The position numbers and the translations under genes are program-made. A stretch of 64,000 bases of DNA from Yoonia sediminilitoris (GTDB lineage Bacteria > Pseudomonadota > Alphaproteobacteria > Rhodobacterales > Rhodobacteraceae), in the NCBI RefSeq assembly GCF_003058085.1, contig NZ_QBUD01000001.1, positions 372,001 through 436,000 of the forward strand, written 5' to 3'. The notes under the pieces were generated by a model, which saw only the letters and a list, made by a program, of their open reading frames with translations, was not told the DNA's origin and did not search any database. This document shows positions 48,652 through 61,946 of the stretch, piece after piece. The first letter of the stretch is position 1, and the number at the start of each line of letters is the position of its first letter.

Positions 48652-51495
48652 TTACTCGGCAGCTTCCGCGTAGCTTTCCATCGGGGGGCAGGAACAGACA
48701 AGGTTCCGATCGCCCCAAACATTATCGACGCGGTTGACCGGTGGCCAATATTTGTCGACGCGGAACGCACCTGGCGGAAAGCAACCTGTCTCGCGCGAAT
48801 AGGGGCGGTCCCAATCCTTGACCAGATCTTCCATCGTGTGCGGCGCATTCTTGAGAGGGTTGTTTTCCGGATCCACCTTGCCGCTTTCGATCTCGGCAAT
48901 CTCGGCGCGGATCGCCAGCATGGCCTCGCAAAAGCGGTCAAGCTCGGCCTTTGTCTCGGACTCGGTCGGTTCGATCATCAGGGTGCCTGCCACCGGCCAG
49001 CTCATTGTGGGTGCGTGAAAGCCGCAGTCCATCAGCCGTTTGGCGATATCATCCACAGTGACATGCGCGCTGTCCGCAAAGGGGCGGGTGTCGATGATAC
49101 ATTCATGCGCAACGCGCCCTGTGGGGCCTTTGTAAAGTACGTCAAACGCCCCTTCGAGCCGTTTGGCAATGTAGTTGGCATTCAGGATCGCCACGCGCGT
49201 TGCCTGCGTCAGCCCGTCACCGCCCATCATCAGACAATAGGCCCAAGAGATCGGCAGCAGTGAGGGCGAGCCAAACGCCGCTGCGGCAACTGCGCCCTCG
49301 CCACTTGTCGGGTCACCGGGCAGATGGGGGATCAGGTGGGATTTGACACCAATCGGCCCCATGCCGGGGCCGCCGCCGCCGTGCGGAATGCAGAATGTCT
49401 TGTGCAGGTTCAAATGGCTCACATCGCCGCCCAGATCGCCGGGGCGTGACAGCCCGACCATGGCGTTCATGTTGGCCCCATCGATATACACCTGCCCGCC
49501 GTGGTCATGAATGATCTGGCAGACTTCGGTCACCGTCTGCTCGAACACCCCATGGGTCGAGGGGTAGGTAATCATGCATCCGGCAAGGTTTTCGGCATTT
49601 TCCGCGGCCTTGGCGCGAAAATCCTCAAGATCAATATCTCCGTTGTCCGCCGATTTGACCGGCACGACCTTCCAGCCGACCATATGGGCCGAAGCGGGGT
49701 TGGTACCATGTGCCGACATTGGAATCAGGCAGACGTTGCGATGGCTCTGCCCATTGGCACGGTGATAGCCGGCAATGGCCAGAAGGCCCGCATATTCGCC
49801 TTGCGCGCCGGAATTCGGCTGCATCGAAATCGCATCATATCCGGTGATGTCGCATAGTTTCGCTGAGAGATCATCAATCATCCGGGTATAGCCTGCGGCC
49901 TGATCGCGCGGCACGTAAGGATGAAGATGCGCGAATTCATCCCATGACACCGGCATCATTTCCGCCGCTGAATTCAGTTTCATCGTACAAGACCCAAGCG
50001 GGATCATCGCGCGGTCAAGGGCGAGGTCACGATCAGCCAGACGACGCATGTAGCGCATCATTTCCGTTTCGGCCCGGTTCATGTGAAACACCGGATGGGT
50101 CAGGAAGTCAGACGTGCGGATCAGCTTTTCTGGCACATGGTAATGCGGGGTGTAGTCCTTGTCTTCGCGGTCGATGCCAAAGGCGCGCCAGACGGCCTCG
50201 ATTGTCGCAGGTCGTGTGCGTTCGTCCAGCGTGATGCCGATTTGGGTGGTACCGACTGCGCGCAGGTTGATGCCTTCATCGACCGCTGACTTCATGACCG
50301 CTGCTTGCAGTGGGCCAACCTCAACTGTGATCGTGTCAAAAAAGGTCCGCGGGCGCACATCGAAGCCCGCCTGTTTGAGCCCTTCGGCCAATCGTGCGGT
50401 CTTGCGATGAATACGCTGTGCAATCGCCCGTAACCCCTCTGGCCCATGGAACACCGCATAAAAACCCGCCATCACCGCCAGCAGCGCCTGCGCTGTGCAG
50501 ACATTGGATGTCGCCTTTTCGCGGCGGATGTGCTGTTCGCGGGTTTGCAGGGACAACCGGTAGGCGCGGTTGCCGTGGCTGTCGACGGATACGCCGACGA
50601 TCCGGCCCGGCATGGACCGCGCATAGTTGCTCCGCGTGGCCATGTAGGCCGCGTGTGGCCCGCCATAGCCCACAGGCACGCCAAACCGTTGGGTGCTGCC
50701 GACAGCGATATCGGCGTCCATTGCGCCCGGCTCCTTGAGCAAGGTCAGCGAAAGCGGATCGGCGGTGATGATTCCAATGGCCTTGGCATCGTGTAGCTTG
50801 ACCATTTCGGGTGTGAAGTCCCGCAGATGCCCATGGGTGCCGGGAAACTGGAAGATCGCGCCGAATACAGCCGTGGGATCCAGATCATCGGGGTTGCCGA
50901 TGATCAGTTCAATCCCCAAGGGGGCAGCGCGCGTTTTCATCACGGCGATGTTCTGCGGGTGGCAGTTTTCGTCGATGAAAAAGCCGGTCGCTTTCGATTT
51001 TGCGACCCTCTGCGCCATGGTCATGCCCTCTGCGCAGGCCGTCGCCTCGTCCAGAAGCGATGCATTGGCGATCTCGAGCCCGGTCAGGTCAGACACCATC
51101 GTTTGAAAGTTCAAGAGCGCCTCAAGCCGTCCTTGCGAAATCTCGGGCTGATAGGGTGTGTAAGCGGTGTACCACGCCGGGTTCTCAAAGATATTCCGCT
51201 GGATCGCAGGTGGCGTGACGGTGCCATGATAGCCTTGCCCGATCAGCGAGGTGAGCACCTTGTTCTGAGAGGCGGTGACCTTCATGTGATGCAGCAATTC
51301 GCGTTCCGACATGGGTTTGCCGAAATCAAGCGGTTTGGCTTGCCGGATCGTTGCTGGCAGCGTGTCGTCAATCAGCGCGTCAAGATCGGCCGCACCCACC
51401 ACTGACAGCATTTGTGCCATCTCATCCGGGGAGGGTCCGATGTGACGCCGGTTGGCGAAATCATATGGCAGGTAGTCAGTGGGGGTGAATGTCAT
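48652..51495 (-). CDS. gcvP: Glycine dehydrogenase (decarboxylating), P-protein
   Basis: The start at 51493-51495 gives [20 protein letters not shown], as usual for GcvP. The 947-residue enzyme decarboxylates glycine and transfers the aminomethyl group to the lipoyl arm of GcvH. The PLP-binding Lys lies in [20 protein letters not shown] in the C-terminal half. The single long chain unites the two halves (GcvPA and GcvPB) found as separate proteins elsewhere. It is last in gcvT-gcvH-gcvP, 16 bases after gcvH, and is controlled by the upstream glycine riboswitch. Confidence 0.97.
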
Positions 51496-51511
51496 GGCAG
51501 CTCTCCGATGG

Positions 51512-51871
51512 TTAACCGATAAGGGCCTGATAGGCGGCTTCGTCCAGATAGCTGTCCATCTGTGACGGGTCCGAGGGTTTGATCTTGAAAAACCAGCCGT
51601 CCCCGACAGGGTCATCATTGGCGAGCGCAGGATTTTCGGCGAGCGCCTCATTCACTTCGACGATTTCGCCGTCCAGCGGCGCCAGAATGTCGGACGCTGC
51701 CTTGACGCTTTCAATCACCACGGTTTCGTCGTCCTTGAGCACGGTGGCCCCGACCTCTGGCAACTCTACAAAGACAATATCGCCCAACTGCGTGGTCGCA
51801 TGTTCGGTGATACCCACAACGATCAGGTCGTCCTCGGGGCGCAGCCACTCGTGTTCTTCGGTGAATTTCAT
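51512..51871 (-). CDS. gcvH: Glycine cleavage system H-protein
   Basis: The 119-residue protein carries the lipoyl group on Lys 57 in [42 protein letters not shown] is the typical opening. It shuttles the aminomethyl group between P-, T- and L-proteins. It is separated from gcvT and gcvP by 16 bases on each side, so all three are cotranscribed. Confidence 0.97.
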
Positions 51872-51887: not shown

Positions 51888-53009
51888 TTAGCGTTTGAAG
51901 TTGGCAGGTGTGAAGGGCAGGGGGCTGATCGTCAGGGGCAGCCGCTTGCCCCGCAGTTCGCCGTAGACTGTCGTGCCGGTGGCGGCTTGCGCCGTGGGCA
52001 GGTACCCCATCGCAATCGGCCCGCCTACGGTCGGGCCAAATCCGCCGGATGTGATTTGACCAATCGGTGAGTCATCATCAACTTGGGCAAAGAGCAGCAC
52101 GCCCTCGCGCATGGGCGCACGCCCTTGGGGGATCAGGCCGACACGTTTGCGCGCCGCACCGCCTGCAATCTCGGGCAGGATAATGTCAGCGCCGGGAAAA
52201 CCGCCAGCACGAGTGCCGCCGGTGCGCCGCGCCTTCTGGATAGCCCAGTTCAATCCTGCCTCGGTTGGTGTCGTGCCTGTGTCAATGTCGTGCCCATAAA
52301 GGCAAAGCCCTGCTTCAAGCCGCAGGCTGTCGCGCGCGCCTAGCCCGATAGGGGCGACATCGGCGTGCGACAATAACTGCTCTGCCAGTTCGGTGGCATC
52401 GGCGGCGGGCACGGAGATCTCGTAACCGTCCTCGCCTGTGTAGCCGGACCGCGACACCCAGCATGACACGCCGTTGAGGGGCAGAGTGGCCACATCCATG
52501 AACCGCATGTCTGCCGCGGCAAGGTTGAGCGACGCCAGCACGGTTTCGGCCAAGGGCCCTTGCAGCGCCAGCAAGGCCCGGTCTGTGACGGGCGTGACAG
52601 TGACCCCCTGCAAATGCGCGGTCATATGGGCAATATCGGCGGCCTTGCAGGCGGCGTTCACCACCACAAGGATATGATCGCCACGGTTGGCCAGCATCAA
52701 ATCATCCATGATGCCGCCTGCGTCATTGGTGAAAAAGCCATAGCGTTGCCGGTTTTCGCCCAGCCCCAGAATATCGACGGGGATCAACCTTTCCAGGGCT
52801 GTTGCGGCAGCAGCGTAGTCGGCGCCCCTGATGATGACCTGCCCCATGTGGCTGACGTCGAACAGCCCAGCCTTTTCGCGGGTATGCGCATGTTCCTTCA
52901 TCACACCCATAGGGTATTGCACCGGCATATTGTAACCTGCAAAGGGCACCATTTTGGCCCCCAGTGTCAGGTGCATATCATGCAACGGGGTCTGTAGAAG
53001 GTCAGACAT
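51888..53009 (-). CDS. gcvT: Aminomethyltransferase, glycine cleavage T-protein
   Basis: The 373-residue enzyme moves the one-carbon unit from aminomethyl-lipoyl GcvH to tetrahydrofolate, releasing ammonia. Typical segments are [39 protein letters not shown] at the N-terminus, the folate-binding region [16 protein letters not shown], and [19 protein letters not shown]. It is first of the three gcv genes and lies directly downstream of a tandem glycine riboswitch. Confidence 0.97.
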
Positions 53010-53100: not shown

Positions 53101-53249
53101 CTCTGTCCTTGCGCCTGAGATTGCTATCCCTTCGGCGGGCACGGCATGCGTGCCACTCTCCAGAGTATTCTTATCGACGCTGGTCCGTTGGCCTGAGAGT
53201 TTCCGGGGCGGTTGCTCCTTCGGCACCAGTTGGTCTGATTCTCCCAACG
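53101..53249 (-). promoter_or_regulatory. Tandem glycine riboswitch upstream of gcvTHP
   Basis: On the minus strand two aptamers follow each other. The first (53249 to 53186) has P1 CGTTGG/CCAACG, and contains GGGAGAATC, GCCGAAGGAGCAA and CTCTCAGGC. The second (53165 to 53101) has P1 CTCTG/CAGAG, with GGAGAG, GCCGAAGGGATAGC and ATCTCAGGCGCAAGGACAG. These are hallmark bases of the cooperative glycine riboswitch. A hairpin ACGCGAAAGC/GCTCTCGCGT at 53067-53090 lies in the expression region without a T-run, so control could be at translation. It should switch gcvTHP on when glycine is abundant. Confidence 0.95.
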
Positions 53250-53275
53250 ACGATGCAGACTTTATGCTGCCAGTT

Positions 53276-54421
53276 TCAGATGCAGGCAAGCAAGAGTTTG
53301 GTTGTATTGTCCTTTGTCATTTCGATTGGATTGCCGCCCGTGCTGGGGTCGATCAGCGCGCCAGCGACAATCCGGTCGATGTCGGGGTCTGTCACACCGA
53401 GGGCCGTCAGCGTTTTGGGGATGCCCAAGCTGGCGTTCAGGTCATCCACATAATTGCAAAAGCCGTCAAAGCCCCCGTCAATGCCCAGGTAGTTGGCCGC
53501 CTGCGCGATCACATCGCTGATAGCCGGTTTGTTGAATTGCAGAACGGCGGGCATGCAGACCGCGTTCGTTGTGCCGTGGTGCGTGTGATAGATTGCGCCG
53601 ATGGGATGCGACAGCGCATGAATGGCCCCCAATCCCTTTTGAAAGGCCGTGGCCCCCATGGCCGCCGCCGACATCATGTTGGCGCGCGCTTCAATATCGG
53701 TGCCATCGGCATAGGCGCGGGGCAGGTTTTCCTTGACCAGCCGCATCCCTTCCAGCGCGATGCCCTGCGACATCGGGTGGTAGTGGGGCGAACAGAAGGC
53801 TTCGACACAATGGGCAAAGGCATCCAGCCCGGTGCCTGCGGTGATGAATTTGGGCATGCCGACTGTCAGTTCGGGGTCGCAAATCACCACGCTGGGCAGG
53901 AATTTGGGGTGAAAGATGATCTTTTTCTCGGCTGTTTCCGAGTTGGTGATGACGGACGCGCGCCCGACTTCCGACCCTGTGCCCGCCGTTGTGGGCACGG
54001 CAACAATCGGCGCGATCGCATCTGCATCGGCACGGGTCCACCAGTCACCGATATCCTCGAAATCCCACAAGGGCCGGGTCTGCCCTGCCAGAAACGCAAC
54101 CAGCTTGCCTAGATCAAGGCCGGAGCCGCCGCCAAAGGCCACAACCCCGTCGTGCCCGCCATCCTTGAACGCCTGCACGCCGGCGGCTGCATTCTTTTCA
54201 TTGGGGTTCGGGTCAACGTCGGCAAAGATCGCGCGGCCCAGACCAGCGGCCTCAAGCAGGTCCAGCGTGCGGGCTGTGATATCCATATCGGCAAGCCCGC
54301 GGTCCGTGACCAACAGCGGCTTTTTGATGCCCGCCGCCGCACAGGCATCAGCGATTTCAACGATACGGCCTGCGCCGAAACGGATAGCGGTCGGGTAGGA
54401 CCAGTTTGCAGTCAGCGACAT
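53276..54421 (-). CDS. Iron-containing (group III) alcohol dehydrogenase
   Basis: The 381-residue enzyme has the NAD-binding VVAFGGGSGLDLGKLVAFL, PTTAGTGSEVGRASVI, and the iron-binding part DAFAHCVEAFCSPHYHPMSQ, then ALSHPIGAIYHTHHGTTNAVC, with the conserved His residues in place. It oxidises an alcohol to an aldehyde with NAD. It starts 3 bases after the aldehyde dehydrogenase stop, so both act in one pathway, presumably alcohol to aldehyde to acid. The glycine riboswitch begins 26 bases after its stop. The substrate is inferred in the findings. Confidence 0.93.
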   Translation of the reverse strand: MSLTANWSYPTAIRFGAGRIVEIADACAAAGIKKPLLVTDRGLADMDITARTLDLLEAAGLGRAIFADVDPNPNEKNAAAGVQAFKDGGHDGVVAFGGGSGLDLGKLVAFLAGQTRPLWDFEDIGDWWTRADADAIAPIVAVPTTAGTGSEVGRASVITNSETAEKKIIFHPKFLPSVVICDPELTVGMPKFITAGTGLDAFAHCVEAFCSPHYHPMSQGIALEGMRLVKENLPRAYADGTDIEARANMMSAAAMGATAFQKGLGAIHALSHPIGAIYHTHHGTTNAVCMPAVLQFNKPAISDVIAQAANYLGIDGGFDGFCNYVDDLNASLGIPKTLTALGVTDPDIDRIVAGALIDPSTGGNPIEMTKDNTTKLLLACI

Positions 54422-54424
54422 GAT

Positions 54425-55798
54425 TTATGCCTTTTTCAGGTGGTAAGATTTTGGTCGGGTCAGGTTGTGATAGCCAATGATTGACAGACCGCCACCGCGC
54501 CCGGTGTCCTTGCAGCCGGTCCAGCACAGGCCGGGGTCCAGATAGTCGGCCCGGTTCATGAATACCGTTCCGGTATCGATCTGGTCGGCGATGGCTTCAG
54601 CGCGTGTTGCGTCTTGGGTCCAGAGCGATGCAGTCAGCCCGAAGTCACTGTCATTCATCAACCCGATTGCTTCGTCGTCGTCCTTGACGGGCATGATCCC
54701 AACGACGGGGCCAAAGCTTTCCTCGCGCATGACGCGCATGTCGTGCGTTACGTTGGTCAGGATTTGCGGCATCAGATAGGCGCCGCCGTCCAGCGGGAAA
54801 AGTGCGGGATCAATATGTGCCTTGGCGCCGTCTGCAATCGCCTCGGACGTTTGTGCGCGCACTTCGTCAGCAAAGCGCACATGCGCCATCGGACCGAGCG
54901 TTGTTTCAGGATCAAGCGGATTGCCCAGCTTGTAGCCGTTCACGATGGCAACGGCCTTTTCGACGAATGCATCAAACAGGCTTTCGTGCACGTAGATGCG
55001 TTCGATCCCGCAACAGCATTGGCCGGAATTGAACATGGCCCCGTCAATCAGCGTGTCGACAGCGGCGTCAAGATTTGCGTCCGCCATAACATAGCCGGGG
55101 TCTTTGCCGCCAAGCTCCAGCCCGATGCCGGTAAATGTACCAGCGGCGGCCTGTTCCATCGCCTTGCCGCCACCGACAGAGCCGGTGAAATTTACAAAGC
55201 CGAATGACTTGGCTGCAATCAGATCAGATGTTGTCTGGTGGTCCAGAAAGACGTTCTGAAAGACGTCTGCCGGAATGCCAACGCTGTGGAACGCCGCTGC
55301 CATCCGCTCACCAACCAATGGGGTTTGGCTGGCATGTTTCAGCATCACCGCGTTGCCTGCGATCAGGGCAGGGCCGACCGTGTTGATCGCCGTCATATAG
55401 GGATAGTTCCAAGGTGCCACGACAAGAACGACCCCATGCGGCACGCGCTTGATGACACGGCGAAAGGCCGCGCTGTCTTCAACCATGATGTCGGCCAATG
55501 CCTCTTGCGCGATCTCGGCCATGTATGTGGCGCGTTCGTTGAAGCCGCCGAATTCACCGCCATAGCGGACAGGGCGGCCCATTTGCCACGCCAGTTCCGG
55601 CACGATCTCATCGTTCATTGCGCCAACGGCAGCGACTCCGTCCATCACCAGCTTGATCCGCTCATCCAAGGAGCGGGCGGCCCACTCTTTTTGCGCGGTC
55701 CTGGCGCGCGCGACGGCGTCTTCAGACTGCGCCCGCGACAGCGTGGGCCGTTCGACATAGGTGGAGCCATCAATCGGCGAGATACAGGTGATCGTCAT
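54425..55798 (-). CDS. Aldehyde dehydrogenase (NAD(P)-dependent)
   Basis: The start at 55796-55798 gives MTITCISPIDGSTYVERPTL. The 457-residue protein has the ALDH cofactor part VVLVVAPWNYPYMTAINTV, the general base region GLELGGKDPGYVMADANLD, and the catalytic Cys in NSGQCCCGIERIYVHES (about residue 270). Three Cys in a row are notable but similar to related ALDHs I recall. It oxidises an aldehyde to the acid. It starts 4 bases after the GS-like gene and ends 3 bases before the alcohol dehydrogenase. Confidence 0.94.
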   Translation of the reverse strand: MTITCISPIDGSTYVERPTLSRAQSEDAVARARTAQKEWAARSLDERIKLVMDGVAAVGAMNDEIVPELAWQMGRPVRYGGEFGGFNERATYMAEIAQEALADIMVEDSAAFRRVIKRVPHGVVLVVAPWNYPYMTAINTVGPALIAGNAVMLKHASQTPLVGERMAAAFHSVGIPADVFQNVFLDHQTTSDLIAAKSFGFVNFTGSVGGGKAMEQAAAGTFTGIGLELGGKDPGYVMADANLDAAVDTLIDGAMFNSGQCCCGIERIYVHESLFDAFVEKAVAIVNGYKLGNPLDPETTLGPMAHVRFADEVRAQTSEAIADGAKAHIDPALFPLDGGAYLMPQILTNVTHDMRVMREESFGPVVGIMPVKDDDEAIGLMNDSDFGLTASLWTQDATRAEAIADQIDTGTVFMNRADYLDPGLCWTGCKDTGRGGGLSIIGYHNLTRPKSYHLKKA

Positions 55799-55802
55799 TT
55801 CT

Positions 55803-57167
55803 TCAGGCCCTTTCAAAGCCACGTGCAATTTCCCAGTCGGTAACGACCCGGTCGAATTCTTCCTGCTCCCATTCGGCGCAGCGGGTGTAATGGTCAATCA
55901 CATCATCCCCCATCGCTTCGCGCAGAAAGGCGGAGTTGCGCAAGGTTTGCGTTGCCGCGCGCAAGGTCTGCGGAATGTCCTGCGCCTTGGCGTCCTCGTA
56001 GACATCGCCAGTGGTTGCGGGGGGCAGTGACAGTCCATCTTCTATTCCCTTGATTCCTGCAGCCAGCATCGCCGCTTGCGCCAGATAGGGGTTCAGGTCG
56101 GACCCGCCGATGCGACATTCGACGCGCACGCCTTTGGTGCCCTCGCCACACAGACGGAAACCTGCGGTGCGGTTGTCGACGGACCAGACTGTTTTGGTGG
56201 GCGCAAAGGTGCCCTTGGCGAAACGTTTGTAGCTATTGATGTAAGGTGCCAGAAAAAACGTGTAATCAGGTGCATATTTGATCAGACCAGCCATGTAGTG
56301 GCCCATCAGGGTGGACATGCCATGGTCGGCATCGGGGTCAAAGAACGCAGGCTCGCCGTCTTTCCATAATGACTGATGCACATGGCTGGACGATCCCACG
56401 CGATCATGGTGCCATTTCGGCAGGAAGCTTGCCGCGCGGCCTTGCTGCCACGCAATTTCCTTGATCGCGTGTTTCGCTATGGAATGATAATCGGCACAAT
56501 CCAGCGCAGGCGAATAGCGGATATTCAGCTCTTCCTGACCTGTTTCGGCCTCGCCCTTGCTGTTCTCGATCGGCAGACCGGCAGCGTAAAGATGGTTGCG
56601 GATCGGGCGCATGATGCCCTCTTCCTTGGTGGTCTGGAAGATGTGGTAATCTTCATTGTAGCCGCTGATCGGCTGCAAATCGCGAAATCCGCTTTTGCGG
56701 ATGTCGTCATAGCTTTGCTCGAACAGGAAAAACTCCAGTTCGGTCGCCATCTTTGCCTCAAACCCCAGCGCTTCAAGGCGGGCGATCTGCGCCTTGAGGA
56801 TCGCACGAGGCGAATGTGGGACAGGGGCATGCGTGTGGTGATCCAGCACATCACAAAGCACCATTGCGGTGCCTTCCAGCCACGGCACTAGGCGCAAGGT
56901 GGCAAGGTCCGGCTGCATCACATAATCGCCATAGCCTGACTGCCAGCTTGTCGATGCGTAGCCGTCGGGCGTTGCCATCTCAAGGTCGGTTGCCAGCAGG
57001 TAGTTGCAGCAATGGGTTTCGGCAAATGATGTTTCAATGAAATTCACGGCGTGAAACCGTTTGCCCATAAGGCGGCCCTGCATATCCACGAAACAGGCCA
57101 GAACCGTATCAATCGCGCCGTCCGTGACGCGGGATTTGAGATCATCGAATGTCAGGTTGCCGGGCAT
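55803..57167 (-). CDS. Glutamine-synthetase-family ligase (gamma-glutamylamide synthetase type)
   Basis: The 454-residue protein has the GS fold: an N-terminal beta-grasp (VLACFVDMQGRLMGKRFHA), the metal site MATELEFFLFEQSYDD, GEAETGQEELNIRYSPALDCADYH, SSSHVHQSLWKDGEPAF and SYKRFAKGTFAPTKTVW-NRTAGFR. It lacks the Tyr adenylylation site pattern of GlnA and resembles PuuA/GlnA4/IpuC-type enzymes, which couple glutamate to amines with ATP. It probably glutamylates the amine imported by the TRAP system. It is followed after 4 bases by the aldehyde dehydrogenase, and a hairpin separates it from dctP. Confidence 0.9.
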   Translation of the reverse strand: MPGNLTFDDLKSRVTDGAIDTVLACFVDMQGRLMGKRFHAVNFIETSFAETHCCNYLLATDLEMATPDGYASTSWQSGYGDYVMQPDLATLRLVPWLEGTAMVLCDVLDHHTHAPVPHSPRAILKAQIARLEALGFEAKMATELEFFLFEQSYDDIRKSGFRDLQPISGYNEDYHIFQTTKEEGIMRPIRNHLYAAGLPIENSKGEAETGQEELNIRYSPALDCADYHSIAKHAIKEIAWQQGRAASFLPKWHHDRVGSSSHVHQSLWKDGEPAFFDPDADHGMSTLMGHYMAGLIKYAPDYTFFLAPYINSYKRFAKGTFAPTKTVWSVDNRTAGFRLCGEGTKGVRVECRIGGSDLNPYLAQAAMLAAGIKGIEDGLSLPPATTGDVYEDAKAQDIPQTLRAATQTLRNSAFLREAMGDDVIDHYTRCAEWEQEEFDRVVTDWEIARGFERA

Positions 57168-57190
57168 GTCATGTCCTTTCAGGGCAAAGT

Positions 57191-57213
57191 CGCCCCGGTG
57201 TTGATCCGGGGCG
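57191..57213 (-). promoter_or_regulatory. Stem-loop between dctP and the GS-like gene
   Basis: CGCCCCGG-TGTTGAT-CCGGGGCG is a perfect 8-bp GC-rich stem in the 63-base space between dctP and the ligase gene. Such hairpins after binding-protein genes often protect the upstream mRNA or reduce downstream transcription, so more binding protein is made than enzyme. It has only TTT after it on the minus strand, so full termination is unlikely. Confidence 0.6.
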
Positions 57214-57230
57214 GCTCAATTGTTTGAGGA

Positions 57231-58262
57231 TCAGGTATAACGGTACGGGCGGCCAGCTTTGACCATATCCGCGTTATATTTCTTGATGATATCGACAACG
57301 CGGCGCTTGGTGTCGGATTCGGCTGCGATCTCTTCCCAGAATTCATAGGCGGCCGCTTCGACCGTTGCCCATTCATCGTCTGGAATGGATGTCAGTTCCA
57401 GCTTGGGGCCATTGACGCGCAGGTCGGCTTCGCCGCCCCAGTACCACCACTGGCGGTAGTAGTGCGACTGGTCACAGCACACCCGGAACAGCGTTTGCAG
57501 GTCTTCGGGCAGTTCGTTCCAGCGGTCCATGTTGGCAAAGAATGACCCGGCCCATGCGCCCGAGATATTGTTGGTGAGGAAGTAGTTGGTCACATCCGCC
57601 CAGCCGACGGTGTAATCTTCGGTAATGCCGGACCATGCGATGCCATCCAATTCGCCCGTTTGCATGGCGACTTCGATATCTTCCCACGGCAGGTTGACGG
57701 GCACGACCCCGAACTGGCTCAGGAACCGGCCCGCAGTGGGGAAGGTAAAGACCCGCTTGCCTTCCAGATCGGCAAGACTGCGGATCGGGTCTTTGGTGGC
57801 GAAATGGCAGGGATCCCATGCGCCGGCGCTGATGTGTTTGACGCCGACGGCGGAATATTCTTCGTCCCAAATCTCATTCAGGCCGTACTTGTTGAACAGG
57901 ACAGGCACATCAAGTGAATAGCGCGAGGCAAAGGGGAAATAGCCGCCAAAGACAGTCACTTCGGTCGGTGAGGCCATGGAATCGTCATCGGACTGCACTG
58001 CGTCGATTGTGCCGCGCTGCATGGCCTGAAACAACTCGCCAGTGGGCACAAGCTGGTCGGCATAGAACAGTTCAATCTGCATCCGGTCGCCCGCGATCTT
58101 GTTGAACATGGCAATCGCCGGGTCGATGACTTCGGCAGCAAGGGCGGCACCTGCGTATGTCTGCATGCGCCATTTGATTGTGCTTTGCGCCAAGGCCGGT
58201 GTGGCAAAGGCAGCGGGGGCGGCCACGGCGGCCCCTTGAATAAACTTGCGTCTGGTCGTCAT
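57231..58262 (-). CDS. dctP: TRAP transporter substrate-binding protein DctP
   Basis: The 343-residue protein has a Tat-type signal (TTRRKFIQGAAVAAPAAFATPALAQS, twin Arg at residues 4-5). The mature part matches the DctP/TakP group of TRAP binding proteins, for example AMQRGTIDAVQSDDDS, TFPTAGRFLSQFGVVPVNLPWEDIEVAMQTGELDG and SHYYRQWWYWGG. The Arg that often binds the carboxylate of the ligand may be the one in TAGRFL. It captures the substrate in the periplasm for DctQM. It is 48 bases after dctM and before the hairpin at 57191. Confidence 0.93.
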   Translation of the reverse strand: MTTRRKFIQGAAVAAPAAFATPALAQSTIKWRMQTYAGAALAAEVIDPAIAMFNKIAGDRMQIELFYADQLVPTGELFQAMQRGTIDAVQSDDDSMASPTEVTVFGGYFPFASRYSLDVPVLFNKYGLNEIWDEEYSAVGVKHISAGAWDPCHFATKDPIRSLADLEGKRVFTFPTAGRFLSQFGVVPVNLPWEDIEVAMQTGELDGIAWSGITEDYTVGWADVTNYFLTNNISGAWAGSFFANMDRWNELPEDLQTLFRVCCDQSHYYRQWWYWGGEADLRVNGPKLELTSIPDDEWATVEAAAYEFWEEIAAESDTKRRVVDIIKKYNADMVKAGRPYRYT

Positions 58263-58310
58263 TTTTACTCTCCTTGTTGGGTTATGCCGGGTTGGCCCGG
58301 TCGGTTATTG

Positions 58311-59636
58311 TCATTTGTTGTAAACGTAGTCGGGTAGCCAAGTGGCGATGCCGGGAAAGACCATCACGAGGGTCAGCGCCAGCACCATAATCAGCACAAA
58401 CGGCGTGATGGAGCCATAGATGTCACGCAGGCTGATCTCGGGCGGGGCCATCGCCCGCATCAGGAACAGGTTATAGCCAAAGGGCGGGGTCATATAGGCA
58501 ATTTGGGTCGTGATCGTGTAAAGGATGCCGTACCAAATCAGATCGAACCCAAGCGCGCCGACCAATGGCACATAAAGCGGGGCGACGATCACCAGCATGG
58601 CGGTGTCATCCAGAAATGTGCCCATCAGGATAAAGCTGAGCTGCATCAGTATCAGGATCATCCATGGCGATAGGTTAAGCCGCTCTGTAAAGACGCTCTC
58701 GATCGCCTTCACTGCGCCCAGCCCGTCGAAAACGGCCCCGAAGGCGAGTGCGGCAAGGATGATCCACATGAACATGCAGGTGATGCCCAGCGTGTTGCGC
58801 ACCGAATTTTCAAACACCTCGCGGGTCATCCGCCCCTTGAGGACCGCAGCCAGAAACGCGGCAATTGCGCCGATGGCAGAGCTTTCGACAAGCGAGGTCC
58901 AGCCTTTGACAAAGGGCACCATCATCACGGCAAAGATCATCAGTGGCAGCAGGCCCGCGCGTAACAATCGTAGCTTTTCCGCGCGCGGAATGTCGCGTTC
59001 GCTTTGGTCCAGAATGGGGCCAAGGGTAGGGTTCATTCGGCAACGGATTACGATGTAGGCAATGAACAGCCCTGCCATCATCAGCCCCGGAATGACGCCT
59101 GCCAGCCAAAGCTGACCCACCGGTTGCCGCGCAATCATCGCATAAAGCACCAGCACAACAGACGGCGGCACCAGAATCCCCAGACTGGAACCCGCCTGAA
59201 TAACCCCCGTGACCATGCGCTTGTCATAACCCCGCTTGAGCAGTTCGGGCAAAGCGATCGTCGATCCAATTGCCATGCCCGCCACGCTTAGCCCGTTCAT
59301 GGCCGAGATCAGGACCATCAGGCCAATTGTCCCAACCGCCAGCCCCCCGCGCAGTCCGCCCATCCAGACATGGAACATGCGGTAAAGATCATCAGCGATT
59401 TTGCTTTCCGACAGCACGTAGCCCATAAAAATGAACATCGGCAGGGTCAGCAGCGGATACCATTTCATCAGCTTCATGGCGGCCGAAAAACCGATGTCAA
59501 ATCCGCCCCTGTCGCCCCACAGCAGCAGGGCGGCGACGACGGCAATAAACCCAATAGCCCCGAACACCCGTTGCCCTGTCAGCAGCATCAGCATCATGGA
59601 TGAAAACATCAGGGTGGCGATAAGTTCGTACGACAT
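58311..59636 (-). CDS. dctM: TRAP transporter large permease DctM
   Basis: The 441-residue protein has about 12 membrane segments and DctM motifs such as LLTLPMFIFMGYVLSESKIADDLYRMFHVWMGGLRGGLA and GVIQAGSSLGILVPPSVVLVLYAMIARQPVGQLWLAG. DctM carries the sodium-coupled translocation pathway. It shares one base with the dctQ stop (TGATG). Confidence 0.95.
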   Translation of the reverse strand: MSYELIATLMFSSMMLMLLTGQRVFGAIGFIAVVAALLLWGDRGGFDIGFSAAMKLMKWYPLLTLPMFIFMGYVLSESKIADDLYRMFHVWMGGLRGGLAVGTIGLMVLISAMNGLSVAGMAIGSTIALPELLKRGYDKRMVTGVIQAGSSLGILVPPSVVLVLYAMIARQPVGQLWLAGVIPGLMMAGLFIAYIVIRCRMNPTLGPILDQSERDIPRAEKLRLLRAGLLPLMIFAVMMVPFVKGWTSLVESSAIGAIAAFLAAVLKGRMTREVFENSVRNTLGITCMFMWIILAALAFGAVFDGLGAVKAIESVFTERLNLSPWMILILMQLSFILMGTFLDDTAMLVIVAPLYVPLVGALGFDLIWYGILYTITTQIAYMTPPFGYNLFLMRAMAPPEISLRDIYGSITPFVLIMVLALTLVMVFPGIATWLPDYVYNK

Positions 59637-60205
59637 CAGAGCACCTCACCCCTGATCCGCAGCAGATCCTTGAAGAATTCCGACAGGCATTGCAGCAGCA
59701 TCAGGAACATGCCAACGATCATGACCGCCTTGATCGGCCAAAGGTACGGACGCCATGCGGTAGACGAACGTTCCATGCGGCCGATTTCTTCGGACCCGGT
59801 GAGCAACCCAGCAAAGAAGGAAAACGGCTCTGTCCCCCAATAGCCAAGCGAATAGGCGGTGGAACTGACGGCGCCATAAAGAAGCACACACAGATAAAAG
59901 ATCAGGAGCAGAACAGTGAAGAGGTCAAACCACGCTTTTTTGCGCGTGGACCATTCACCGTAAAGCAAATCCATCCGCACGTTTGATCCCAGCTGGATCG
60001 AATAGGGGCCGCCAAGGATATAGTAGGCGACCATCACGAACTGGGCCATCTCCAGGGTCCAGAGTGTCGGAAGAAAAAACGTCTTGCTGATCGACGACCA
60101 GAGCAGAATGCCCATCAGGACGAAAATGCCATACATGATGACCCGGCCCAGCCGATAGTTAACTGCGTCAACCGCGTGAATGTAGCCACGGATCAGGCCG
60201 ATCAT
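59636..60205 (-). CDS. dctQ: TRAP transporter small permease DctQ
   Basis: The 189-residue protein has four membrane segments and the DctQ-like start NYRLGRVIMYGIFVLMGILLWSSISKTFF, followed by MAQFVMVAYYILGGPYSIQLGSNVRMDLLYGEWSTRKKAWFD. It forms the transporter with DctM. It overlaps the upstream amidohydrolase gene by 4 bases and dctM by one, so all three are translationally coupled. Confidence 0.92.
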   Translation of the reverse strand: MIGLIRGYIHAVDAVNYRLGRVIMYGIFVLMGILLWSSISKTFFLPTLWTLEMAQFVMVAYYILGGPYSIQLGSNVRMDLLYGEWSTRKKAWFDLFTVLLLIFYLCVLLYGAVSSTAYSLGYWGTEPFSFFAGLLTGSEEIGRMERSSTAWRPYLWPIKAVMIVGMFLMLLQCLSEFFKDLLRIRGEVL

Positions 60206-60954
60206 TGGGCGAACCCCGTCAACTCAAGCCGCGCACAGGCATGGGTCAGCCATCTGGCGATCATCAAGCCGAAGGCCTGTTGCTGATCTGCTGTGGCGAT
60301 CAGGTCATTGCGGATTTCCAGCATCACATTGGGATGGCCAGCCTTGATGGCATGTTCTTTCAGCGTATGGGTCACACCATGTTCCGGCCCATAGGGTTGA
60401 TTGCGGGCAACCGCTGCCGTGGTGTGGGCTGCAGCGCTGTCAATCAGCGCATCCGCAAGCCGTGTGTCGCTGTCATGTAGAATGCCGATTTCGACATCCC
60501 GTTTCTGGCCGTGAAAGACAGGGGTAAAACTGTGGATGGTGACGATGATGGGTTCCGCCATTTCGCTGATGACAGTGGCAAGTGCCGCCTGAAATGGCCG
60601 ATAGAACTGGTCGGTCCGCGTTTGACGGTCCTGCGCGCTTAGGTTGGCATTGCCGGGAACGTCGATCATCTCGCTTTTGGCGGGCATGGCGTCGGGTGCA
60701 TCAGGCGGGCGGTTGCAGTCATAGATCAGCCGGGACACGCCGCTGGCGACCAAGGGCGCATCAAGCTGTGCTGACATGACCTGCGCTACTGCCGCAGCCC
60801 CCGGGTCCCATGCGGCATGGCTTTCCCTGTGCTCTGGCGTCAGGCCAAGCCATTGAAATTGCGCAGGAATGTAATGGGAAGCATGTTCGCACACCAAAAC
60901 GAAAGGGGACGCGCCCCCTGCATTCGTCACTATGATGGTGCCTTGGTTCGCCAT
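60202..60954 (-). CDS. N-formylglutamate amidohydrolase family protein
   Basis: The 250-residue protein begins FVLVCEHASHYIPAQF, the zinc site of the N-formylglutamate amidohydrolase (HutG/FGase) family, and has SRLIYDCNRPPDAPDAM, IIVTIHSFTPVFHGQKRDVEIG and HPNVMLEIRNDLI. These enzymes release glutamate from N-acyl glutamates. There are no hut genes nearby, so histidine breakdown is unlikely. In this operon it could cut a gamma-glutamyl amide instead, which is inference. It is the first gene of the operon and overlaps dctQ by 4 bases. Confidence 0.9.
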   Translation of the reverse strand: MANQGTIIVTNAGGASPFVLVCEHASHYIPAQFQWLGLTPEHRESHAAWDPGAAAVAQVMSAQLDAPLVASGVSRLIYDCNRPPDAPDAMPAKSEMIDVPGNANLSAQDRQTRTDQFYRPFQAALATVISEMAEPIIVTIHSFTPVFHGQKRDVEIGILHDSDTRLADALIDSAAAHTTAAVARNQPYGPEHGVTHTLKEHAIKAGHPNVMLEIRNDLIATADQQQAFGLMIARWLTHACARLELTGFAQ

Positions 60955-60996
60955 TTACCCTCCGATCACCAGTTAACCTTCCGCCAGCCAGAGATT

Positions 60997-61026
60997 TTGT
61001 CAACTTAATTTTGAGAAAAATATAAC
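60997..61026 (+). promoter_or_regulatory. Candidate promoter of the RpiR regulator gene
   Basis: TTGTCA (60997-61002) and TATAAC (61021-61026) are 18 bases apart in a 119-base AT-rich space between the divergent amidohydrolase and rpiR genes. The stretch also contains an imperfect dyad TCAA-N7-TTGA, a possible site for the regulator itself. This is by eye only. Confidence 0.35.
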
Positions 61027-61073
61027 ACTTCAGATAACTCTGGTATATTATCGATCAAAAGGGGGCAAAGAGT

Positions 61074-61946
61074 ATGAACCATGTGCCACTGACAATCTCT
61101 GACCGCATCCAGAAGCAGTTGGATGATCTGACGCGGGCCGAGCGCCAGTTGGCGCATTCGATCCTTGAAAACTATCCTGCGTCAGGGCTTGGCCCGCTGA
61201 GTTCATTGGCCAAGGATGCCAAGGTTTCGGTGCCGACTGTGGCCCGCATGGTGCAAAAACTGGGGTTCAGCGGATACCCCGAGTTTCAGGCCGAACTGCG
61301 CGAAGAACTGAAAGCCAAGGCCAAGGACCCGATTGCCAAGCATGACACATGGGCTGAAGGGGCCCCGTCAGAGCATCTTTTGAACCGCTTCACCGATGCG
61401 GTGATCGACAATATCCGTCATTCATTGGGGCAGATTGACCCTGCCGAATTTGATGCCGCCTGCGCGCTTGCCGCGGATACGGAGCATCATCTTTATGTCG
61501 TCGGCGGGCGCGTGACCCATACGCTGGCTGAATATCTTTTCCTGCACATGCAGGTCATGCGCGCGAAGCTGACCCATATCCAGTCCACGTCGAATGCATG
61601 GCCACATTATTTGCTGGATGTGAAAGAAGACGACGTTTTCATCATCTTCGACATGCGCAGGTATGAAAATAACACCCTGAAGCTGGCTGAAATGGCCCAT
61701 GCGCGGGGCGCGAGGATCATTCTTTTTACCGACCAGTGGCGATCGCCTGTTCACCAACTGGCCACCTACAGTTTCAGCAGCCGGATTGTTGTCCCGTCGG
61801 CATGGGATTCGGTCGTCACCCCGCTGTTGCTGCTGGAGACGATGATTTCGACCATGCAGAACCTGACATGGGACGACACAAAAGACCGGATGCAGTCGCT
61901 GGAAGAGATGTTCGATCAGACCAAGCTGTTTCGCAAATTCACTTAG
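61074..61946 (+). CDS. MurR/RpiR-family transcriptional regulator
   Basis: The 290-residue protein has an N-terminal RpiR helix-turn-helix (LSSLAKDAKVSVPTVARMVQKLGFSGYPEFQAELREEL, residues 42-80) and a SIS domain (about 120-255) with ADTEHHLYVVGGRVTHTLAEYL. SIS domains usually bind sugar phosphates or related metabolites. The gene is divergent from the TRAP and catabolic operon and is likely its regulator. The SIS ligand is not evident. Confidence 0.93.
   Translation: MNHVPLTISDRIQKQLDDLTRAERQLAHSILENYPASGLGPLSSLAKDAKVSVPTVARMVQKLGFSGYPEFQAELREELKAKAKDPIAKHDTWAEGAPSEHLLNRFTDAVIDNIRHSLGQIDPAEFDAACALAADTEHHLYVVGGRVTHTLAEYLFLHMQVMRAKLTHIQSTSNAWPHYLLDVKEDDVFIIFDMRRYENNTLKLAEMAHARGARIILFTDQWRSPVHQLATYSFSSRIVVPSAWDSVVTPLLLLETMISTMQNLTWDDTKDRMQSLEEMFDQTKLFRKFT

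Follow-up and report, generated by a model that had tools for sequence, protein, structure and literature searches.

A probable eto operon for ethanolamine catabolism in Yoonia sediminilitoris, with a riboswitch-controlled glycine cleavage operon directly behind it

Gene Content of the Locus

The window analyzed here is a stretch of 64,000 nucleotides from Yoonia sediminilitoris (NCBI RefSeq assembly GCF_003058085.1, contig NZ_QBUD01000001.1, positions 372,001 to 436,000), in which a cluster of eight genes, in all probability an eto operon for the uptake and catabolism of ethanolamine, is followed directly by a glycine riboswitch and the glycine cleavage genes gcvTHP. An earlier note on this DNA, made from the sequence alone, had described seven minus-strand genes with a divergent RpiR gene and had proposed that they convert an imported amino alcohol to an amino acid through gamma-glutamylated intermediates. 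The eight genes are borne out at their coordinates by Pfam matches, all of which lie above the curated cut-offs. On the minus strand, the series begins with an FGase-family hydrolase (60202..60954; PF05013, 149.6 bits) and continues with the small permease EtoV/DctQ (59636..60205; PF04290, 58.5 bits) and the large permease EtoW/DctM (58311..59636; PF06808, 228 bits) of a tripartite ATP-independent periplasmic (TRAP) transporter, together with its predicted ethanolamine-binding protein EtoX/DctP (57231..58262; DctP Pfam match). These are followed by a ligase of the glutamine synthetase (GS) family, the putative ethanolamine gamma-glutamylase (55803..57167; PF00120, Gln-synt_C, 325 bits), an aldehyde dehydrogenase predicted to make gamma-glutamylglycine (54425..55897; PF00171, 384 bits), and an iron alcohol dehydrogenase, the predicted gamma-glutamylethanolamide dehydrogenase (53276..54421; PF00465/PF25137). 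The RpiR-type regulator is encoded divergently on the plus strand (61074..61946; PF01418, HTH_6, and PF01380, SIS). As listed, the aldehyde dehydrogenase frame opens with a TTG at 55897 and so shares 95 bases with the ligase gene; the true start therefore probably lies inside the listed frame, below 55897.

Directly downstream, as the earlier note had also stated, RF00504 and Pfam matches confirm a glycine riboswitch aptamer (53171..53256, minus strand; 55.4 bits, gathering score 32) and, on the same strand, gcvT (51888..53009; PF01571, 278 bits), gcvH (51512..51871; PF01597, 143 bits), and gcvP (48652..51651; PF02347, 611 bits). Apart from these genes, the interval separating etoX from the ligase gene holds a GC-rich hairpin of 11 pairs (57188-57216), classed as terminator-like for the plus strand, which may stabilize or separate the binding-protein message.

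Identity of the Operon and the Predicted Pathway

The ethanolamine operon is not new, since both the pathway and the operon have already been published for Phaeobacter/Roseobacter sp. MED193. According to the available passages of PMC10132767, the MED193 operon (MED193_10021-10056) runs in the order RpiR, GGAH, EtoV, EtoW, EtoX, ETAGA, GAADDH, and GETADH, in which GGAH denotes gamma-glutamylglycine amidohydrolase, ETAGA ethanolamine gamma-glutamylase, GAADDH gamma-glutamylacetylaldehydeamide dehydrogenase, and GETADH gamma-glutamylethanolamide dehydrogenase. Direct alignment with the MED193 locus (L255) recovered all eight genes in identical order at 49-88% identity, namely 49% for the regulator, 51% for the hydrolase (the counterpart of GGAH), 62% for EtoV, 70% for EtoW, 88% for EtoX, 74% for the ligase, 71% for the aldehyde dehydrogenase, and 78% for the alcohol dehydrogenase. 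MED193 EtoX binds ethanolamine with a dissociation constant (Kd) of 7.9 uM, and five proteins of that operon are listed at raised levels on phosphorylethanolamine (PMC10132767). The probability that the window's locus is an eto operon of the MED193 type is accordingly put at about 0.94.

In the proposed route, ethanolamine would be imported by EtoVWX and joined to glutamate by the GS-family ligase; the iron alcohol dehydrogenase and the aldehyde dehydrogenase would then oxidize the alcohol to the acid, giving gamma-glutamylglycine, from which the FGase-family hydrolase would free glycine and recycle glutamate, with RpiR as the putative regulator of the operon. The glycine could enter GcvTHP, whose riboswitch-controlled operon stands directly behind eto. 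Both the chemistry proposed in the earlier note (import, gamma-glutamylation, two oxidations, and hydrolysis to glutamate and glycine) and its candidate substrate, ethanolamine, thus agree with what the consulted parts of PMC10132767 assign to the same gene set. The earlier suggestion that a TRAP transporter and a hydrolase of the N-formylglutamate amidohydrolase type would be novel for this purpose did not hold, because the transporter is described in PMC10132767 and the hydrolase families in PMC10132767 and PMC6529630. Literature searches for a TRAP transporter combined with gamma-glutamylation and glutamine synthetase, or for the four-gene combination, returned nothing relevant, and those on EtoX yielded one relevant paper, the other matches not concerning this system. 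The wider meaning is that ethanolamine from phospholipids feeds carbon and nitrogen in marine bacteria, by a pathway that was recovered here by sequence reading alone.

Several points weigh against this assignment. Among the NCBIfam models displayed for the four enzymes (25 of 45 in the case of the aldehyde dehydrogenase), none reaches its cut-off, so that the enzyme names derive from likeness to MED193 and its literature. Moreover, the MED193 mutants in the accessible text of PMC10132767 are phoX and phoB, none being in pathway genes, and the enzyme steps and the role of RpiR in Y. sediminilitoris are predictions. In favor of the assignment, the genome gives no match to EutB (PF06751) of the EutBC ethanolamine ammonia-lyase route, whereas the same search gives one in E. 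coli.

Ligase, Hydrolase, and Binding Protein

The best PDB match of the ligase is 5dm3 (787 bits), and its residues E143, E145, E206, H262, R315, E350, and R352, taken as the GS metal and substrate positions, are invariant among the readable sequences of 161 loci. Position 321 is Phe in all 159 of these loci that are readable there, and among the genome's five GS-family proteins only the GlnA-like L001 has Glu at this site. Similarly, Phe stands in place of Glu327 in GlnA4 (PMC6529630, in part). With the GS residues kept and the ammonia-site Glu replaced by Phe, the enzyme is predicted to be a gamma-glutamylethanolamide synthetase. The hydrolase has a sole PDB match, 2odf, labeled Atu2144 (246 bits).

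The window's DctP matches PDB 4uab/4xf5 at 626 bits, the next structure scoring 68.7 bits. Entry 4uab presumably represents Csal_0678 with ethanolamine, and 4uab and 5dm3 the neighboring Chromohalobacter proteins Csal_0678 and Csal_0679. In alignment, Phe172 of the window's DctP stands opposite the carboxylate-binding Arg of 4yzz, and across 201 loci the homologues carry Phe (186) or Tyr (15), and never Arg, at this position. In Csal_0678, whose structure binds ethanolamine, the Arg residue that serves carboxylate binding in other TRAP proteins is also missing (PMC4646407, partial text), and ethanolamine has been called a surprising TRAP ligand (PMC5812351, partial text). The weak link conceded in the earlier note, that TRAP systems normally carry carboxylates, is answered by these observations, and by analogy with MED193 EtoX the window's DctP is predicted to bind ethanolamine in the micromolar range.

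Two other readings of the operon have to be set against these data. It might serve another small amino alcohol, such as 2-aminopropanol or 3-aminopropanol, in the same manner, with another amino acid as the product; the enzymes alone leave the chain length unfixed, the two dehydrogenases match many substrate classes below cut-off, and aminopropanol is unmentioned in the available parts of PMC10132767, so that such alternatives to ethanolamine may just have gone untried there. The 88% identity of the binding protein to an EtoX of measured ethanolamine affinity speaks against this reading and makes it very unlikely. Far less credible still, to the point of being nearly dismissed, is a system that takes up a conventional carboxylate through the TRAP transporter and whose ligase product is glutamine or a gamma-glutamyl diamine: most TRAP substrates are indeed carboxylates (PMC5812351), but the carboxylate-binding Arg is missing from every one of the DctP homologues, the Glu position is Phe in every readable ligase, and Pfam shows neither an amine oxidase nor an aminotransferase in the eight-gene set. 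An eto operon for ethanolamine remains the preferred reading.

Several related binding proteins were seen in passing. A paralogous EtoX (62-64% identical to the window's) stands with EtoW beside homologues of an FGGY kinase and an FAD protein in L089, L093, L096, L099, L120, L121, and L122, and in all of these except L089 a DeoR/GlpR-type regulator is adjacent. The best NCBIfam match of the kinase is glycerol kinase and the nearest of the FAD protein is glycerol-3-phosphate oxidase, both below cut-off. All seven paralogues have Ala where Asp94 stands in 88 of 91 ethanolamine-type loci, in addition to further fixed differences, and the system may be a TRAP transporter for glycerol or a related polyol; a literature search on TRAP transporters and glycerol gave nothing evidently on point, judged by titles and abstracts. 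In L097 and L128, the Ala94 type replaces the Asp94 type alongside the ligase and the dehydrogenases. A 62% variant of EtoX (Asp94, with Tyr at the Arg position) occurs in the otherwise ordinary eto operon of L164 and likewise in a number of further genera, a pattern suggestive of exchange of the gene for the binding protein.

Distribution of the eto Genes

EtoX (E <= 1e-60) was found in 68 of 120 family genomes (one per genus, window included), in 29 of 240 class genomes (including the window and one family genome already counted), and in 37 of 56 genomes of the window's genus. The loci compared, all chosen as EtoX-bearing and some clipped by contig ends, comprised 67 from other genera of the family, 27 from the class, 26 fetched from the genus, and the best 80 of at least 588 listed, ten of these best 80 repeating loci from the other sets. 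All eight genes, scored by presence only, occur in 45/67 family, 4/27 class, 26/26 genus, and 67/80 best-80 loci, and the exact order is kept in 66 of the best 80 of the at least 588; a few loci (L063, L125) have a different order. Because the eight genes recur together across loci, their grouping is not due to chance.

The ligase is missing from 34 EtoX loci. EutBC was considered as the partner of EtoX there and rejected: among the 25 genomes searched (7 beside glycerol-type genes and 2 with incomplete loci being left out), EutB exceeded the cut-off in two, each time on a contig other than that of EtoX, and fell below it in a third. Elsewhere in the genome, a ligase of 52-64% identity is present in 11 of these 25.

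The Joint with the Glycine Cleavage Operon

The earlier note had taken the gcv neighborhood as support for glycine as the product and had proposed looking for its co-occurrence across Rhodobacteraceae. The adjacency is real in the window; beyond it, gcvT (counted above 45% identity) appears in 0/67 family, 0/27 class, and 0/80 best-80 loci, with at least 1.7 kb visible behind an eto-oriented dehydrogenase gene in 48/52, 6/7, and 67/71 of them, respectively. GcvT matches of 26-30% identity near the operons in L044, L112, L206, L221, and L264 were taken as paralogues and left uncounted. A conserved eto-gcv supercluster is thus rejected, gcvT being seen only within the window's genus, and the adjacency adds only weak support for glycine as the pathway product.

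Within the genus, EtoX and GcvT (E <= 1e-90) were both matched in 25 of the 56 genomes, another 12 EtoX genomes having no GcvT match at this threshold. Of the 37 EtoX loci, 27 were read, window included. Six of the 26 fetched loci contain gcvT, five of them directly behind the dehydrogenase gene, so that with the window the joint is present in 6 of the 25 genomes with both genes; in the other one (L164), gcvTHP lies at the opposite end of the cluster and converges on rpiR. Of the remaining ten EtoX genomes, two have no GcvT match, and in eight GcvT lies on a different contig or some 95-105 kb away. The six joined species do not form a single clade in either the eto tree or the GcvT tree, although support is weak at several deep nodes. 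The trees thus do not establish a single origin, and the joint may be ancient and later lost in some lineages, or may have been gained more than once.

In the window, the aptamer begins 19 nt after the stop of the alcohol dehydrogenase, as counted from the sequence, and in the five other joined species 18-23 nt after it. The tetranucleotide CTTG lies 30-42 nt before the aptamer in 6/6 joined gcv leaders and in 10/14 of the remaining ones from the genus, whereas 13 of 200 equally wide bands taken farther upstream contain it; in the other four unjoined leaders, it stands slightly farther off by eye. In 9 of 15 leaders from other genera, a GGGAGA motif fixed the position, and CTTG occurs at most 60 nt before this motif in 7 of the 9. 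By eye, CTTG falls within CTT GCC, which takes up the fifth and fourth codon positions counted back from the stop (stop included), in 6/6 joined species as opposed to 0/76 others at that codon position; among the others, L042 has CTTGCC farther upstream and L088, L174, and L180 have CTTG in the last codons, and L172 was excluded, as it has no stop nearby. The six species are related and hence not independent of one another, and close relatives also account for many of the remaining leaders.

Since CTTG is shared by gcv leaders with and without eto, gcv probably retains a promoter of its own, which would overlap the final codons of the dehydrogenase gene. No sigma-70 consensus promoter was found on the minus strand at the window's joint, so that this promoter is proposed from position and conservation only. 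The leader shows no marked excess of folding stability (z -1.18; equally good folds in 25 of 200 shuffles). Nor is eto separated from gcv in the window by a terminator-like site on the minus strand, which makes read-through possible. As an addition to the ethanolamine assignment rather than a competitor of it, eto and gcv could hence form one unit, in which eto transcripts read through into the riboswitch leader and ethanolamine-derived glycine raises its own cleavage. The close spacing in six species, the missing terminator, and, in a seventh species (L164), the placement of gcv genes at the far end of the cluster favor such a unit; its confinement to a minority of one genus and the probable separate promoter of gcv tell against it, and it is considered doubtful. 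Equally tentative is the fuller proposal that, in part of one genus, eto is joined end to end with gcvTHP, that the gcv promoter overlaps the last dehydrogenase codons, that a glycine riboswitch sits at the joint, and that both kinds of transcript are gated by glycine. If true, eto-derived transcripts and those from gcv's own promoter would both be controlled by the end product of the upstream pathway; the regulatory coupling of eto to gcv in this organism is in any case conjectural.

Two RNA features were noted nearby. Three genomes of the genus have matches to RF02646 (Ruegeria cis8 small RNA) at distances of 0.6-2.4 kb from the gcv riboswitch (L154:4050-4177, L156:5883-6010, and L160:5453-5580). 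At L147:14019-14181, the Rfam threshold is passed by two glycine aptamers arranged back to back, whereas in the window it is passed only by the first.

Glycine cleavage, gcv, and riboswitches go unmentioned in the main texts of PMC10132767 and PMC6529630; no literature was found on ethanolamine and glycine cleavage in Roseobacter, and none on the glycine riboswitch and ethanolamine concerned the eto operon, by title and abstract opening. The only new addition is that, at the level of one genus, the ethanolamine pathway and glycine cleavage are joined at a glycine riboswitch, which provides a modest natural case of a pathway situated directly upstream of the riboswitch that senses its product.

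Comparison with Known Systems

The closest relative is the MED193 operon, which matches the window in its eight genes, their order, and the divergent regulator, and differs behind the dehydrogenase gene, where 4.9 kb of L255 were read without gcvT, whereas the window has gcvT there. The MED193 genes have been called closely related to ethanolamine-acting genes of Chromohalobacter salexigens and Agrobacterium tumefaciens C58 (PMC10132767), and the C. salexigens (Csal_0678) and A. tumefaciens C58 system is also where the best PDB matches of the window's DctP, ligase, and hydrolase point (4uab/4xf5, 5dm3, and 2odf). The GlnA4 route of Streptomyces coelicolor is more distant. Like the window's operon, it uses a GS-type gamma-glutamylethanolamide synthetase and dehydrogenases, the later steps being proposed, and a protein of the formylglutamate-amidohydrolase family is proposed for the last step (PMC6529630, partial text). 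In contrast, the Streptomyces GlnA4 route employs a short-chain dehydrogenase and an amino-acid-type permease, the latter absent from S. coelicolor itself according to the same passages, where the window has an iron alcohol dehydrogenase and a TRAP transporter.

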